Shown here: in pieces, positions 6,560-25,054 of the stretch | Layout: each line of letters begins with the position of its first letter | Position numbering within the stretch: the first letter of the stretch is position 1 | From: Desulfobulbaceae bacterium | Lineage (GTDB): Bacteria; Desulfobacterota; Desulfobulbia; Desulfobulbales; Desulfobulbaceae | Direction of reading: 5' to 3' | Assembly: GCA_015493715.1 (NCBI GenBank) | Contig: WGCP01000217.1 | Span: 1 to 40,935, forward strand | DNA: 40,935 nt | Notes under the pieces: model-generated | Told to the model about the DNA's origin: nothing | What the model saw: only the letters and a program-made list of their open reading frames with translations | Database searches by the model: none | Made by a program: the position numbers and the translations under genes

Positions 6560-6753
6560 GATGGTCTCGTAAAAAGTCCAGACAATGCCTAAAGATGGCT
6601 ATGTGAAAATACAGATATACAAAGCGAGACTCCGGGTAAGCGTAGACTCCAAGGAGTAGTGTTCTGTGGCGGGTCTTAATTATTACATGTAGTTTACCCA
6701 CGAATCGCCACAGGACACACGACACCGTAGATCGAAGTTTTTACGACGCTATC
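6560..6753. mobile_element. MITE-like element, family A/B, copy A
   Basis: A 194-base element. The left end GATGGTCTCGTAAAAAGT and the right end, on the other strand, GATAGCGTCGTAAAAACT are imperfect terminal inverted repeats. ATAAAA flanks both sides (6554-6559 and 6754-6759) as an apparent 6-bp target duplication. Inside, 6659-6671 and 6706-6718 form a 13-base-pair stem. A second copy lies at 9746-9930. The short open frames across it are not genes. Confidence 0.8.
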
Positions 6754-6808: not shown

Positions 6809-7741
6809 ATGTCCGTCCTTGAGCGAATCTATTTTTTCCATGGAAAAATTCAGTCCGGCGGCTATCCCAATACCAGCCACCTGATCGATGAATTTGAAAT
6901 TTCGCAGTCCACCGCGCACCGGGATATTGCCTACCTGCGGGAACGATTGCTGGCACCGCTGGCATTCGACACCAAAAAAAACGGCTTTTACTATACAAAA
7001 ACGTTCCGACTTCCCTTTGAAAACAGTCCCGCCATGACCATGATTCTTGGTCTGCTCGGTAATATGGCCGAAGAAACCGGGCTGACCGAACTCCCCGAAC
7101 TTGCGGCAATCAAACAACGGTTGCAGGAGGTTCTTTTCCCAGGACAGCGCAACATGGGCGATCTTGTCTACTGTGAATGGGTGGAGAAGGAACTGATCAA
7201 CAAGCACATATTTTCCACCGTGCTGAACGGCCTGAGAGAACAACAGCAACTCCGTGTAACCTATCGCGCCGGAAGCGGCCATATAAGCACTCGCACAATC
7301 GAGCCGTTGAAGCTGATTAACTACCAGGGACGCTGGTATCTGCTGGCCTGGTGCAGAACCAAAAAAAACCGCCGAATGTTCCACCTGGCTCGGATACAAG
7401 AGGCCCGGATACTGCAGGAACCGGTCAATCGGAGTCTGGACGGTGATGATAGCTGGCTGCAGGCAAGTTTCGGCATTTTCAAGGGACCCGCCACATCAAA
7501 GGTATCCATCAGATTTACCGGTACAGCGGCCGAGATTGTTCGCCATCAGATATGGCACCATCAGCAGAAAATCGAGGATGAAAAAGACTCCATCCGGTTG
7601 ACCCTGCCTATTGCCGATGATCGGGAATTGATAATGAAGGTGCTGCAATTCGGCGCCCGGGCGGAAATTCTTTGTCCGAAGAAACTACGGCGGCGACTTG
7701 CTGAAGAAATAAAAAAAATGGCGAAAAACTATAAGCCCTGA
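6809..7741 (+). CDS. WYL-domain transcriptional regulator
   Basis: A 310-residue DNA-binding regulator. The N-terminal helix-turn-helix (about residues 3-50; LIDEFEISQSTAHRDIAYLRERL) is of the DeoR/HTH-11 type. A WYL domain follows, with the eponymous motif in INYQGRWYLLAWC (about residue 172-184) and the basic patch RTIEPLKL. A WCX-type C-terminal region ends the protein (VLQFGARAEILCPKKLRRRLAEEI). WYL domains bind nucleic acid or nucleotide ligands and often control DNA-damage or defence genes. The target here is unknown. The ATG at 6809 has only a weak ribosome site. No defence genes lie next to it, and the following gene starts 83 bases later. Confidence 0.9.
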   Translation: MSVLERIYFFHGKIQSGGYPNTSHLIDEFEISQSTAHRDIAYLRERLLAPLAFDTKKNGFYYTKTFRLPFENSPAMTMILGLLGNMAEETGLTELPELAAIKQRLQEVLFPGQRNMGDLVYCEWVEKELINKHIFSTVLNGLREQQQLRVTYRAGSGHISTRTIEPLKLINYQGRWYLLAWCRTKKNRRMFHLARIQEARILQEPVNRSLDGDDSWLQASFGIFKGPATSKVSIRFTGTAAEIVRHQIWHHQQKIEDEKDSIRLTLPIADDRELIMKVLQFGARAEILCPKKLRRRLAEEIKKMAKNYKP

Positions 7742-7824: not shown

Positions 7825-8835
7825 ATGCACGACAAAACTATCGCCGTTGTCCTGGCCGCCGGCAAGGGAACCCGTATGAAATCAGATCGCGCCAAGGTCC
7901 TGCATGAGGTCTTTTTCAAGCCCATGCTCCATCATGTGCTTGATGCAGTCATCGGGGCAGGCATTGAGCACATGGCCGTCATTGTCGGCCATCAGAGGAA
8001 AAAAGTCCTGGCCGCCATTGACCAATACGCCCACCTGCCCGTCATCCAGAGGGAACAACTGGGCACAGGTCATGCCGTACTCTGTACGAAAAAGGCCTGT
8101 GAAAAGAGCGGACAGGTCATGATTCTGTGCGGAGATACTCCACTTATCAGGTCGCAAACCCTTCAAAAAATGCTCAAGGATCATCAACAGAACAATGCTA
8201 TCATTACTCTGATGACCACCGTGCTTGAAGATCCCTTCGGCTACGGCCGGGTTATCACTGATGAGAATGGAAATATCATCAGAATCGTTGAGCAGAAAGA
8301 CGCCGATGATAAACAACGAGAGATACGGGAAATCAATACCGGCATCTACCTTGTCGAGAAAGAATTTCTCTTTCAGGCCCTGCAAGAGGTGGGCACCGAC
8401 AACAGCCAAGGAGAGGTCTACCTGACCGACATTATTGCAATAGCCCGCAGAAATGGCCATGCGGTCCATAAATTTTTCCATCCCCATGCCATTGATGTTC
8501 TGGGGGTTAATTCGAGGGTTGAGCTGGCCCAGGCCCACGGGGAACTGCGGATGCGCCATAACCGCAAGGTCATGCGCAGCGGGGTGACCATGTACGCACC
8601 GGAAACGATCCTGCTTGATCCGGAAAGCAGGATCAGTCGGGATACCATCATCCATGGGGGAGTGCAGATAACCGGTCGGTCCGAGGTGGGGCAAAATGCA
8701 CGGCTGGAAACAGGCGTGGTCCTGCAGAAAGCTACATTGGGCGCACACGCCGTTATCGGCGCCCACAGTGTTTTACACAACTGTACCGTGGAGGCGGAAG
8801 AACATATTCCGCCCCTGACCTACAAAGTCGGCTGA
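7825..8835 (+). CDS. GlmU-like sugar-1-phosphate nucleotidyltransferase, C-terminally short
   Basis: The N-terminal domain carries the nucleotidyltransferase signature LAAGKGTRMKSD (about residues 11-22), LGTGHAV and CGDTPL, matching the GlmU uridyltransferase that makes UDP-GlcNAc from GlcNAc-1-phosphate and UTP. From about residue 250 only about 85 residues of left-handed beta-helix remain (GVTMYAPETILLDPESRIS, then LGAHAVIGAHSVLHN). Full GlmU is about 450-460 residues, so the acetyltransferase active site is missing. The protein probably performs only uridyl transfer, with GlcN-1-phosphate acetylation done elsewhere. AAGGAA six bases before the ATG supports the start. thiF starts four bases after the stop. 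Confidence 0.88.
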   Translation: MHDKTIAVVLAAGKGTRMKSDRAKVLHEVFFKPMLHHVLDAVIGAGIEHMAVIVGHQRKKVLAAIDQYAHLPVIQREQLGTGHAVLCTKKACEKSGQVMILCGDTPLIRSQTLQKMLKDHQQNNAIITLMTTVLEDPFGYGRVITDENGNIIRIVEQKDADDKQREIREINTGIYLVEKEFLFQALQEVGTDNSQGEVYLTDIIAIARRNGHAVHKFFHPHAIDVLGVNSRVELAQAHGELRMRHNRKVMRSGVTMYAPETILLDPESRISRDTIIHGGVQITGRSEVGQNARLETGVVLQKATLGAHAVIGAHSVLHNCTVEAEEHIPPLTYKVG

Positions 8836-8839
8836 TGCC

Positions 8840-9646
8840 ATGCTGAGAGTCAACGAGCGACCCTATCCATTTCATGAGGGAATGCGCCTGGGAGAACTTG
8901 CCGACCGGCTGAAGCCGGGCGCTGATATCCTGGTACTCAACGGCACGCCTGCTTCCAGAGATTCCCTGCTCCAGGACGAAGACGTCTGCGCCCTCATCAA
9001 AATCGGCGAAATTCCCTCGGCCATTGACATGCAGCACACCCTTGAAGCCAGACATGGCCGGGATGTGCAACGATTGTTCAAAAAGGCTAGCGTAGGTATC
9101 ATGGGGATCGGCGGACTGGGTTCGGCCGTGGCGCTCAGTCTTGCAAAAATCGGCATTGGAAAATTAATCCTTGCCGACCATGACGTGGTAGTTCTCAGCA
9201 ATATTCACCGCCAGCACTATTTCATCGACCAGATCGGCATGAAAAAAACTGCGGCCCTGAAAAAAACAATGGTCAGGGTTAATCCATTTGTCAGCATCAC
9301 TGCCCTGGACGTCAAGCTTACTGAACAAAACATTCCCGAGCTGTTTGGGGGCGTTGATGTACTTGTCGAATGTTTCGATGATCCGACAATGAAAGCCGAA
9401 GCCCTGCGGGCGGCACTGCAGCACCTGCCGGAAATGGGCTATGTCGGCGCTTCCGGTGTAGCGGGATACGGAGACGGCAATACCATTACCTGCAAAAAAA
9501 TAAAGGCCGGTGTTTTTATTGTCGGTGACGGCACCTCGGAGGCCGGAGACAGCTCAGGTCTCTTTGCGCCGAGAGTTGGAATAGCCGCCCATCACCAGGC
9601 CAACTTGGTCGTTCGCCTGCTTCTTGGTCTTGAAAAAAACAAGTAA
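8840..9646 (+). CDS. thiF: ThiS adenylyltransferase ThiF with ThiS-like N-terminal domain
   Basis: A 268-residue E1-like enzyme that adenylates the C-terminus of the sulfur carrier ThiS in thiazole synthesis. The first ~65 residues form a ThiS/ubiquitin-like domain (MLRVNERPYPFHEGMRLGEL) without a terminal GG, as seen in family-2 ThiF proteins. The Rossmann ATP-binding motif GIMGIGGLGSAVALSLAKIG follows at about residues 89-108, then LADHDVV and NIHRQ. It is closely coupled to the GlmU-like gene. A transposon-like element separates it from thiS downstream. Confidence 0.9.
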   Translation: MLRVNERPYPFHEGMRLGELADRLKPGADILVLNGTPASRDSLLQDEDVCALIKIGEIPSAIDMQHTLEARHGRDVQRLFKKASVGIMGIGGLGSAVALSLAKIGIGKLILADHDVVVLSNIHRQHYFIDQIGMKKTAALKKTMVRVNPFVSITALDVKLTEQNIPELFGGVDVLVECFDDPTMKAEALRAALQHLPEMGYVGASGVAGYGDGNTITCKKIKAGVFIVGDGTSEAGDSSGLFAPRVGIAAHHQANLVVRLLLGLEKNK

Positions 9647-9739
9647 TTGTGTGCCCTATTTCCCTTTTTCAGTGTTGGCAACCAGCCCTGTTCCGATTAT
9701 GATTGATTTGTTTTCCGCTGAAACATTAGAGATAATCTT

Positions 9740-9936
9740 CTGAATGATGAACTCGTAAAAAGTCTAAATAATACTGAAAAAAGGCTAAGTAAAAACACAG
9801 ATATACAGGTAAGCGGAGCGGAGACTCCGAGGAGTAGTGCTCCAGGGCGGGTCTTAACTACACATGTAGTATGCCCACGAATCGCCCCGGGACACACGAC
9901 GTAGTAGATCGAAGTTTTTACGACGCCATCCTGAAT
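9740..9936. mobile_element. MITE-like element, family A/B, copy B, inserted at the thiS start
   Basis: A 185-base element (9746-9930) with left end GATGAACTCGTAAAAAGT and right end, on the other strand, GATGGCGTCGTAAAAACT. CTGAAT is directly repeated at both sides (9740-9745 and 9931-9936), a clean 6-bp target duplication. The interior matches the copy at 6560-6753, including GGCGGGTCTTAA and GTAGATCGAAGTTTTTACGAC. The right-hand duplication overlaps the ATG of thiS. Confidence 0.88.
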
Positions 9937-10144
9937 GAAAAGAGTGAAAATACAATGTAACGGTCGACAACAGACCCTTGCCGAGGACACTACCCTTGCC
10001 GAACTGCTGGATGATTTAGGGCTGCCTGCAGACTCCGTTGTCGCTGAAATCAATAAAAAAATAATTGATCGTGATCAGTATGCAACCTTCAAGCTTTCTT
10101 CAGGCGACCAGGTAGAGCTGATTCGTTTTGTTGGAGGAGGGTGA
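9935..10144 (+). CDS. thiS: Sulfur carrier protein ThiS
   Basis: A 69-residue ubiquitin-like carrier ending in RFVGGG. The C-terminal Gly-Gly is adenylated by ThiF and then carries sulfur as a thiocarboxylate to ThiG. The body has the normal pattern ([26 protein letters not shown]). The start could be the ATG at 9935 or the GTG at 9944, which would give the usual short N-terminus (M-KIQCNG). Neither has a strong ribosome site. The ATG lies inside the target duplication of the element just upstream. thiG follows on the same strand seven bases after the stop. Confidence 0.9.
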
Positions 10145-10151
10145 GAGTAGA

Positions 10152-10937
10152 ATGCTGACCATCGCAGAAACGAAATTTTCATCACGTCTGTTTGTCGGTA
10201 CCGGAAAGTTTTCTTCGGCAACAGTCATGGAACAGGCCATTAAAGCCTCGGAAGCGCAAATGGTGACCGTCGCGCTCAGGCGTGTTGACCTGGAAAATCC
10301 GGATGATGACATAATGACGCACCTGGACCGGGAGCGGGTCCACTTTCTTCCCAATACCTCCGGCGCCAGAAACGCGGAGGAGGCCGTTCGGCTTGCCCGC
10401 CTGTCCCGGGCCGCTTCCGGAACACGCTGGCTGAAACTTGAGGTTACCCCGGATCCCCGAACCCTGCTGCCCGACCCGGTGGATACGCTGAAGGCCACTG
10501 AGCTGCTTGCCAAGGAGGACTTCATCGTTCTGCCCTATATAAACGCCGATCCCATTCTTGCCCTGCGGTTGCAGGACGTGGGAGCCGCCGCCGTTATGCC
10601 CCTTGGCGCTCCGATCGGCACCAACCTGGGGATCCAGACCGCGCTGCAAGTGGCCATCATTATTGAACAGGCCCGGGTACCGGTGGTGGTTGACGCCGGA
10701 ATCGGCGCCCCATCCCATGCGGCGCGGGCTATGGAAATGGGCGCGGATGCGGTGCTGGTCAATACGGCCATTGCCGTGGCCGGTGATCCCGTCCGTATGG
10801 CCACGGCCTTCAAACAGGCGGTACTGGCCGGACGACTAGCCTTTGAGGCCGGGCTGGGCGCAAGTTCAACCTCGGCGCGGGCATCCTCTCCACAGCGGGG
10901 AATGGTCGGTGAATCCTTACACTTCATCGAAGAATAA
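10152..10937 (+). CDS. thiG: Thiazole synthase ThiG
   Basis: Condenses deoxyxylulose-5-phosphate, dehydroglycine and ThiS-thiocarboxylate into the thiazole phosphate moiety of thiamine. The sequence shows [12 protein letters not shown] at the N-terminus, [26 protein letters not shown] (with the expected active-site lysine region), [13 protein letters not shown] and [19 protein letters not shown], all typical of the TIM-barrel enzyme. At 261 residues it is of normal length. The ATG at 10152 is chosen by homology ([14 protein letters not shown]), and an upstream in-frame start at 10128 would overlap thiS. thiH begins four bases after the stop. Confidence 0.97.
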
Positions 10938-10941
10938 TCCC

Positions 10942-12051
10942 ATGCTAGCATCTTTTCATATTGAAAATTTTTCAGCGCTCACCGATCAAATTCTTGCGGC
11001 CACAACTGCAGAGGTTGAAACCGCCCTGAACAGTCGGGTTTGCACTCTCGACGACCTGGCCGCCCTGCTCTCTCCGGCGGCGGAAAAATTTCTGCCCATG
11101 ATGGCTGCCCGCTCCCGCGAGTTGACGGCCCTGCGTTTCGGCAAAACCACGCAGATATTCGCCCCGCTTTATCTGTCCAACTTTTGCATCAACAGATGCG
11201 CTTATTGCGGATTTGCCGCCGACAATGCCATCCCCAGAAAAAAGTTGACGATCAATGAAGTCGAACGGGAAGCAAACATCCTCAAACAGCGTGGCTTCAA
11301 CCATGTTCTTCTGGTCACGGGAGAAGCGCCGGCCAAGGCAGGCGTGGACTATCTGGAAGAAGTGGTTCTGCGTCTAAAAAACAAATTTGCCGCCCTTTCC
11401 ATTGAAGTGCAGCCCATGGAACAGGAGGAATATGCCCGACTGTTCCGAGCCGGGGTTACGGCGGTTGCCGTCTACCAGGAGACCTATGATCGCAGGGTCT
11501 ACAATCAGGTGCATCTGGCCGGAAAAAAATGTGACTATGAGTATCGTATAGCAACCCCGGCCCGTGCCGCCGCCGCCGGAATGCGTGAAATCGGTATCGG
11601 TTCTCTGCTCGGCCTTGCCGACTGGCGCGCCGAGGGACTGGCCCTGGGCAGTCATCTTGCCTGGCTGAGGAAACGGTTCTGGCAGACGAACTTTACCGTC
11701 AGTTTTCCCCGGCTCAGACCGGCCGCAGGCGCATTCAAGCCGCTGATCAACGTTACGGAGAAAAATTTAAGCCAACTCATGTTTGCCCTGCGCATCTTTG
11801 ATCCGGACGTGGGCCTGATCCTCTCCACCCGCGAGGAGGCCAGATACCGTGACGGCATGTTAGGCCTTGCACCCACCAGGTATTCCGCCGGTTCCTGTAC
11901 GGACCCGGGAGGTTATTCATCGAACGATCACACGGGTGAACAGTTCTCGGTCGGCGATCATCGGACAATTGATGAGGTATGCCGGGTTATAGTCAACAAA
12001 GGCCTTGATCCGGTCTGCAAGGATTGGGACAGAGAATTTCAGCTGAACTAA
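10942..12051 (+). CDS. thiH: 2-iminoacetate (dehydroglycine) synthase ThiH
   Basis: A radical SAM enzyme that cleaves tyrosine to dehydroglycine, the glycine-derived part of the thiazole in anaerobes. The cluster-binding motif CINRCAYCGF (CxxxCxxC) lies at about residues 83-92, after the typical IFAPLYLSNF lead-in. The later VTGEAPAKAGVDYL, VAVYQETYDR and the C-terminal ILSTREEARYRDG regions also match ThiH. At 369 residues it has normal length. Use of ThiH rather than the oxygen-dependent ThiO fits an anaerobe. It ends the thi operon, and 116 bases without recognisable features follow. Confidence 0.97.
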   Translation: MLASFHIENFSALTDQILAATTAEVETALNSRVCTLDDLAALLSPAAEKFLPMMAARSRELTALRFGKTTQIFAPLYLSNFCINRCAYCGFAADNAIPRKKLTINEVEREANILKQRGFNHVLLVTGEAPAKAGVDYLEEVVLRLKNKFAALSIEVQPMEQEEYARLFRAGVTAVAVYQETYDRRVYNQVHLAGKKCDYEYRIATPARAAAAGMREIGIGSLLGLADWRAEGLALGSHLAWLRKRFWQTNFTVSFPRLRPAAGAFKPLINVTEKNLSQLMFALRIFDPDVGLILSTREEARYRDGMLGLAPTRYSAGSCTDPGGYSSNDHTGEQFSVGDHRTIDEVCRVIVNKGLDPVCKDWDREFQLN

Positions 12052-12167: not shown

Positions 12168-13457
12168 ATGAGCGACATTAAAAAGATGTACACAACTATT
12201 TTAGGTGATTCTTTTCCTCTGGAAATGACCATCTCCTTTGGTGACCAGACCCTGGTGTACCGTAAACGGACCTGGGCCATTGCCACAGGAGACGGAACCG
12301 TGGAGGAACGCGGCCTGCGTTACGGTGAAAATCCCGATCAGGAGGCCGCCCTCTATGAGCTGGTCAACGGCAACCTGGTCCTGGGTGACTGCAAGTTTAT
12401 TGATCCGGGCAATTCACTGGTTTCCGGTATCACGGTCGATGACATGCTGCAGGTGGGGAAACATCCCGGTAAAATCAATCTGACCGATGTGGATAATGGC
12501 CTCAATATCATCAAATACCTGGTCGACAAACCGGCCGCCGTCATCCTCAAGCACAATAACCCCTGCGGCGCAGCCGTAAGCGATACCCTGGCCGACGCCT
12601 ACAACAAGGCCAACCGTACTGATCGGATCGCCGCCTTTGGCGGGGCCGTCATCATGAGCAGGCCGGTGGACAAGGACGCCGCCGAACTTATGAGCCAAAA
12701 CTATCTCGAAGTCGTCTGCGCCCCAGAATTTGAAGAGGGCACGCTGGACATCCTCTCCAAGGCCAAGAATCTGCGGGTTATCCGCATGGACGGCATCAAC
12801 CGGCTTGCCGATTTTGAAAAATTTCGCTTTGTCGATTTTAAATCACTTATAGATGGCGGGCTAATTGTTCAGCAATCCGCCGTCAACTCCATTCGCTCTC
12901 CGGCTGATCTGAGACCGGCAACCGCCACCTGGAAAGGGAAAGAATATGCCTGTAAGCGGCAACCGACCCAGCAAGAGCTTGATGATATGATTTTCGGGTG
13001 GGCGGTTGAACATGGCGTCACCTCGAATTCCGTGCTCTATGTCAAGGATGGCTGCACCACCGGTGTCGGTACCGGTGAACAGGACAGAGTGGGTGTGGCG
13101 GAAATCGCCATCCACAAGGCCTATATAAAATATGCCGACATTACCTGCTTTGACAAATTCGGTATCCCCTACGCCGATCTGGCCCTGGAAGTGGAACAGG
13201 GCAAAAGGGATGCGGCCGATAAGGAGGCTATCGATGCTAAGGTGAAAAAGGATAAGGCCGGACTACCGGGATCGGTCATGATCTCCGACGCCTTCTTCCC
13301 GTTCAGAGATGCCGCCGACGTAGCCATCCGCGAGGGTATCACCGCCATTCTCCAGGCCGGTGGCTCCATGCGCGACTACGCCTCCATCGAGGCCTGCAAC
13401 GAGGCTGATCCGCAGGTTGCCATGATGTTTACCGGACAGCGCTCATTTAAGCATTGA
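12168..13457 (+). CDS. Stand-alone AICAR formyltransferase (PurH C-terminal domain only)
   Basis: Transfers a formyl group from 10-formyl-THF to AICAR, the penultimate step of purine synthesis. The protein has the transformylase signature KHNNPCGAA (about residues 127-135), LRYGENPDQEAALY near the N-terminus, GDAFFPF-like SDAFFPFRDAADVA and the terminal TGQRSFKH. At 429 residues it lacks the ~190-residue IMP-cyclohydrolase domain of bifunctional PurH, so that step must come from another gene. GGAG eight bases before the ATG supports the start. No purine genes are adjacent. Confidence 0.92.
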   Translation: MSDIKKMYTTILGDSFPLEMTISFGDQTLVYRKRTWAIATGDGTVEERGLRYGENPDQEAALYELVNGNLVLGDCKFIDPGNSLVSGITVDDMLQVGKHPGKINLTDVDNGLNIIKYLVDKPAAVILKHNNPCGAAVSDTLADAYNKANRTDRIAAFGGAVIMSRPVDKDAAELMSQNYLEVVCAPEFEEGTLDILSKAKNLRVIRMDGINRLADFEKFRFVDFKSLIDGGLIVQQSAVNSIRSPADLRPATATWKGKEYACKRQPTQQELDDMIFGWAVEHGVTSNSVLYVKDGCTTGVGTGEQDRVGVAEIAIHKAYIKYADITCFDKFGIPYADLALEVEQGKRDAADKEAIDAKVKKDKAGLPGSVMISDAFFPFRDAADVAIREGITAILQAGGSMRDYASIEACNEADPQVAMMFTGQRSFKH

Positions 13458-24683: not shown

Positions 24684-25054
24684 TGGAAAAAATGCAACTA
24701 TTCAGGAGTGCTCCATATCTGTGTAGGCACGCCTGTGAACTATAGTGATTCCTCTATGGATCAGACCTGACCGTGCAGATAGCGAAGTACGAGACTTCGG
24801 AGATGGGGGTGCTCCTGAAGTTACGAAAAAATAATTATCCCGTACCCGTATAATGCGCCGTTTTTTGCTCCTGATTCAAGACGTACAAAGGGGCGCATAT
24901 TGTGAACATGTACTTATTTCGTAATAAGTAAAATTTACACAATGATGGCTAAGTAAAAACGCAGATATACTGGTAAGCTGGGCGCAGCGGAGACTCCGGG
25001 AGATTAGACAAAAAGACAATTTTTTAAGGTGGCCTAGAAATTTTCCGGCAACAA
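24684..25054. other. Intergenic region with mosaic repeats (371 bases)
   Basis: It contains GCAGATAGCGAAGTACGAGA (24775-24794), resembling the core of the 17842-18049 element. Further on, GGCTAAGTAAAAACGCAGAT (24946-24965) and a core module (24972-25000) match the family A/B interior. AATTTTTTAAGGTGGCC (about 25019-25035) matches the end of family D. No gene or RNA is recognised. Confidence 0.6.

Follow-up and report, generated by a model that had tools for sequence, protein, structure and literature searches.

The non-coding 185-bp element at positions 9746–9930 (forward strand) of the window, by which we mean the whole 40,935-nt stretch of Desulfobulbaceae DNA, from an uncultured sulfur bacterium, analyzed here, is a bacterial MITE inserted in front of the vitamin B1 gene thiS; this is an ordinary kind of event, involving a common type of element. 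We consider it very likely that this is an IS1182-type MITE lying in the 5′ leader of thiS, where it would be transcribed as a long hairpin with an effect that is neutral to modest.

The element is bounded by two forward-strand copies of the target-site duplication CTGAAT, one on the left (9740–9745) and one on the right (9931–9936), and the right copy closes with the A and T that open the ATG at 9935. A reading made earlier from the sequence alone had described a transposon-like element of 185 bases with CTGAAT on both sides, the right one reaching into the thiS ATG, and direct reading together with a repeat search bears this out. The overlap of duplication and start codon is neat and unsurprising, and the location is ordinary. 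The extreme ends, GATGAACTCGTAAAAA and TTTTTACGACGCCATC, are imperfect terminal inverted repeats in the repeat search (16 nt, 81% complementary), and the ends are conserved across copies. The outer left terminal inverted repeat is GATGAACTCGTAAAAAGTC (9746–9764, forward strand), and the right one, delimited by comparison of copy ends, reads GATGGCGTCGTAAAAACTT on the minus strand (9912–9930). An inner left arm (9780–9806, forward strand; family consensus GATGGCTAAGTAAAAACACAGATATAC), recognized from the consensus fold and the repeat search, pairs with 9904–9930 and thereby closes a long hairpin. All the usual marks of a MITE are present, namely a length below ∼500 bp with no transposase gene, terminal inverted repeats, a duplication of fixed size and a high copy number. 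The element has no ORF of its own except a minus-strand frame that runs on into thiS. A literature search with the MITE end sequence returned no relevant paper.

The family is abundant. By BLAST, the element's own genome has at least 40 matching places, at 78–92% identity; the other copies, whose absence would have spoken against the sequence-only reading, are there. The 19-nt left end occurs at 52 sites in this genome with two mismatches or fewer (none for the reversed control); about 24 of the end sites lie beyond the BLAST copies, and several of these are complete elements. Altogether, this Desulfobulbaceae MAG holds about 60 or more related copies. The own and related genomes together yielded 121 distinct full-length copies, 160–202 bp in length, and 80 of them are flanked by an exact duplication of at least 6 bp, compared with 1.1 when the flanks are shuffled. 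The duplication is 6 bp in 67 copies, 7 bp in 12 and 8 bp in one, and the target consensus over the copies is TC[ANNNNT]GA; the insertion at thiS went into a target resembling this one, with the 6-bp duplication described above. Of the 89 copies whose flanks are long enough to be judged, 11 overlap ORFs of 90 aa or more and the others lie between ORFs, according to rough ORF calling. A survey of 57 genomes, the element's own and related ones, shows many close copies in some members of the same genus and a few elsewhere in the family; related ends extend to other families of the order. In a scan of named genomes for the exact pattern, the matches listed came from Desulfobulbaceae and Desulfobulbus MAGs only.

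The window itself contains a second copy, at 6560–6753, which is 79% identical to the one at thiS and has the duplication ATAAAA. It lies ∼55 nt upstream of an ORF (6809–7741) that reads from its sequence as a WYL-type regulator (one weak NCBIfam match). There is also a partial copy at 24919–25002, which matches query positions 14–95 (77%) and lacks the right end.

The MITE is probably derived from an IS1182-type family, and its mobilizer is likely to be an IS1182-family transposase, which would have moved this non-autonomous element in trans. Intact and decayed transposase copies occur in related genomes. In G006, of the same genus, a 1,878-bp element with the ends GATAACCTCGCGAAAA and TTTTTGCGATATCATC encodes an intact 587-aa transposase, for which IS1182 is the best fit (NF033551, 164.7 bits, below the model cut-off of 270); its matches to PF13751 and DUF772 exceed their cut-offs. 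G045, of the same family, has four identical intact IS1182-type elements of 1,893 bp and two copies of a diverged form, and its transposase is 53% identical to that of G006. The G045 elements have GATGGC..CAAAA ends and A..T duplications of 6–7 bp (ATGCTT, AGAACTT, AAGGTT, AAGTGAT). In G005, of the same genus, transposase remnants adjoin GATGGACTCGTAAAAAGT ends. The MITE thus resembles IS1182 elements in its GATG...CGNAAAA ends and in its 6–7 bp A..T duplications; it differs from them in having no transposase, in its small size and in its internal hairpin. The likeness of the ends is itself partial (GATGGC/CGCAAAA for IS1182, GATGAAC/CGTAAAA for the MITE), and the G005 remnants are closer. An IS1634 origin, guessed from the 6-bp duplication, was dropped as the transposase matched IS1182.

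The element's own genome (G000, a fragmented MAG, 97.5% complete) gave no match to PF13751, and no IS1182 transposase was detected in it. None of its end pairs encloses an autonomous element, and the few widely spaced pairs have degenerate ends. We therefore infer the mobilizer of the thiS copy only from its ends and duplications. MITEs can outlive their source, and so the absence of a transposase from G000 lowers the case for derivation from IS1182 without excluding it; either the source has been lost, or the MAG lacks it, or it belongs to another branch. As a separate observation, at L227:1190–3281 in G006 an IS1182-type element has inverted copies of a 101-bp MITE at a distance of 6 bp on either side, which looks as though MITEs had entered the duplications that flank the IS itself.

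The genes around the insertion, all on the forward strand, are thiF (8840–9646; NF006395, TIGR02354), thiS (9935–10144; TIGR01683, 71.3 bits), thiG (10152–10937; PF05690, E 4.5e-106) and thiH (10942–12051; TIGR02351, 472.7 bits). The last three are intact, and thiS retains its C-terminal GGG. The element had been thought to separate thiF from thiS, but the gap between these genes is already 148 nt (G006), 152 nt (G022) and 154 nt (G012) in relatives that have no element there, and with the element and one duplication removed it would have been ∼97 nt here, so the separation was not created by the insertion. The comparison with relatives that the earlier reading called for shows the element to be absent from this position in G006, G001, G022 and G012. 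No very near relative with the exact empty site was found among the eight genomes of the genus, where the leader is too diverged for base-by-base alignment. G005 carries another copy of the same family elsewhere in the gap, upstream of the promoter and with its own duplication, TGTTTT.

A scan for sigma-70-like sites before thiS gives only one good site, a putative promoter TTGGCA-17-TATGAT at 9675–9703 (forward strand), which precedes the MITE and has been conserved in three species of the genus (L064, L065, L068). The surrounding block (9665–9712) is identical to G005, G006 and G001 at 36–39 of its 48 positions, while the leader downstream of it is not conserved. From the consensus match and the conservation, we take this block to contain the native thiS promoter, left intact by the insertion. 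The block (TTTTTCAGTRTTGGCAA...CCGATTATGATT) is kept in four species of the genus, and its conservation goes beyond what a bare promoter would need.

Since the target lies between the thiS promoter and the coding region, the element would now be transcribed within the thiSGH 5′ leader, and with promoter-like sequence intact upstream it need not provide expression signals, as had been suggested. If the MITE had brought in an outward-facing promoter or a translation signal that now drives thiSGH, there would be precedent in Correia-type MITEs, whose ends can give rise to promoters (PMC2649163), and this one does abut the thiS start codon. However, no good sigma-70-like site is found inside the element, the only one being at 9675–9703, and its right end provides no Shine-Dalgarno sequence (anti-Shine-Dalgarno pairing before ATG 9935 of −0.6 kcal/mol, against a background median of −3.5 kcal/mol), so that we regard such a takeover as very improbable. 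The MITE has no terminator-like site either. At the gathering score, Rfam matches in the whole window are limited to 5S and LSU rRNA, with no TPP riboswitch or other curated RNA family, and a search near the thi genes at E values up to 10 gave nothing relevant.

Two in-frame starts are present for thiS, the ATG at 9935 and the GTG at 9944 downstream of it, and either is possible. The GTG is plausible, as the sequence-only reading proposed, because the ATG of most relatives falls at this position in the alignment; in G005 the position is occupied by CTG, and an ATG corresponds to the one at 9935. With the ATG kept by the duplication and the GTG still available, ThiS remains encoded from one candidate start or the other. 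The same reading held that the insertion had removed any original ribosome site or leader, and neither part is supported. The leader is displaced, not deleted. Pairing before ATG 9935 was −3.4 kcal/mol prior to the insertion, and the corresponding values in relatives are −0.5 (G005), +0.1 (G022), −0.3 (G011), −0.3 (G012), −3.1 (G006) and −6.5 kcal/mol (G001). Only G001 has a plausible Shine-Dalgarno sequence among the six nearest relatives, and because most close relatives thus have none before thiS, no clear ribosome site was lost.

These observations bear on a further reading, in which the insertion lowers thiS expression: the native leader is disconnected, initiation there yields only a four-codon mini-ORF, and the mRNA carries a stable hairpin. 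The left duplication does create, within the native leader context, a putative mini-ORF of this kind at its junction with the MITE (ATG ATG AAC TCG TAA, 9744–9758, forward strand, from reading of the sequence), and the family consensus hairpin has an energy of about −57 kcal/mol. Against this, thiS initiation without a Shine-Dalgarno sequence is also the situation in most close relatives, thiS, thiG and thiH show no sign of decay, and start accessibility is predicted to be unchanged, the opening energy of the start region being 7.1 kcal/mol with the MITE and 7.5 kcal/mol without it. A strong effect on start-codon accessibility is accordingly not predicted, and we consider a knock-down unlikely. 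For the leader MITE as we interpret it, the most likely effect on thiSGH expression is neutral to modest.

The hairpin itself is formed by the inner left arm and the right end, and the 121-copy consensus fold gives it −57.5 kcal/mol. The structural case rests on this alignment and not on the folding of single sequences, which compares with shuffled sequences at a z of −1.16 for the plus strand (not clearly better) and −2.29 for the minus strand. Over the 121 copies, 93.5% of the consensus-stem cells are paired, against 91.9% in shuffles and 31–50% in slid versions. Both partners are changed in 11 pairs and 111 cells, where the shuffles give 6.3 pairs and 46.9 cells; in slid versions this is so for up to 13 pairs, but for only 29 cells. 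Most of the cells with both-side changes stem from two subfamilies. Kinship of the copies or correction of one arm by the other could produce the same covariation signal, and for this reason the evidence for selection on the RNA is weak. We give almost no credence to the idea that the family consists of portable leader regulators with a selected RNA hairpin, marked by compensatory changes in the inner stem, and that insertion ahead of thiS, repeated in separate lineages, reflects recruitment for thiamine regulation. A transcribed MITE could nonetheless fold into the long hairpin, which might, like Correia elements, alter how the mRNA is processed or how stable it is.

Elements with related ends recur near thiS in other lineages. 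G024 and G034, of other families, have dissimilar elements with related ends there, that of G034 lying ∼250 nt upstream of the gene. With the copies at differing positions of the gap in the window and in G005, these could be taken to mean that insertion before thiS is preferred or selected for, with MITE hairpins recruited there several times as thiS regulators. The elements lie on differing sides of the promoter, however, and their interiors and positions differ; copies are numerous and mostly intergenic, so that finding a few such cases by coincidence among 30 loci is unremarkable, and the pattern was noticed after the fact. We find repeated recruitment highly unlikely, and treat the recurrence in other families as a lead only.

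The arrangement at thiS has close counterparts in the Correia elements (CREE/NEMIS) of Neisseria, a short MITE present in ∼120–250 copies and often located 5′ of genes (PMC2649163). At mtrCDE, one such element separates the genes from their native promoter; it is transcribed there and cleaved by RNase III, and another has its end at the A of an ATG (PMC2649163). No sequence relation is claimed. The ERIC sequences of enterobacteria, which are interspersed MITE-like repeats that can affect the transcripts containing them (PMC10969869), are alike in form only, and further cases of MITEs acting on transcripts have been reviewed (PMC10969869). Abundant multicopy intergenic sequences, some with inverted-repeat ends, are described for Geobacter metallireducens (PMC2700814), likewise an anaerobic former deltaproteobacterium; here the likeness is one of description. 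As an example of a bacterial MITE in the leader of a biosynthetic operon, the thiS insertion is well resolved, and it leaves the general view unchanged. It also brings to light an abundant repeat family of the Desulfobulbaceae, of which we found no description, with a likely tie to an IS1182-type mobilizer; this should help in annotating these genomes.

Two neighboring genes of the window deserve brief mention. Upstream of thiF, positions 7825–8835 encode a GlmU-like protein of 336 aa that matches approximately the first 330 positions of the GlmU profile, with scores below the cut-offs. At 12168–13457 is a 429-aa protein whose match to the PurH profile starts near position 203 of 511 and covers its second part alone, leaving the cyclohydrolase part unmatched.
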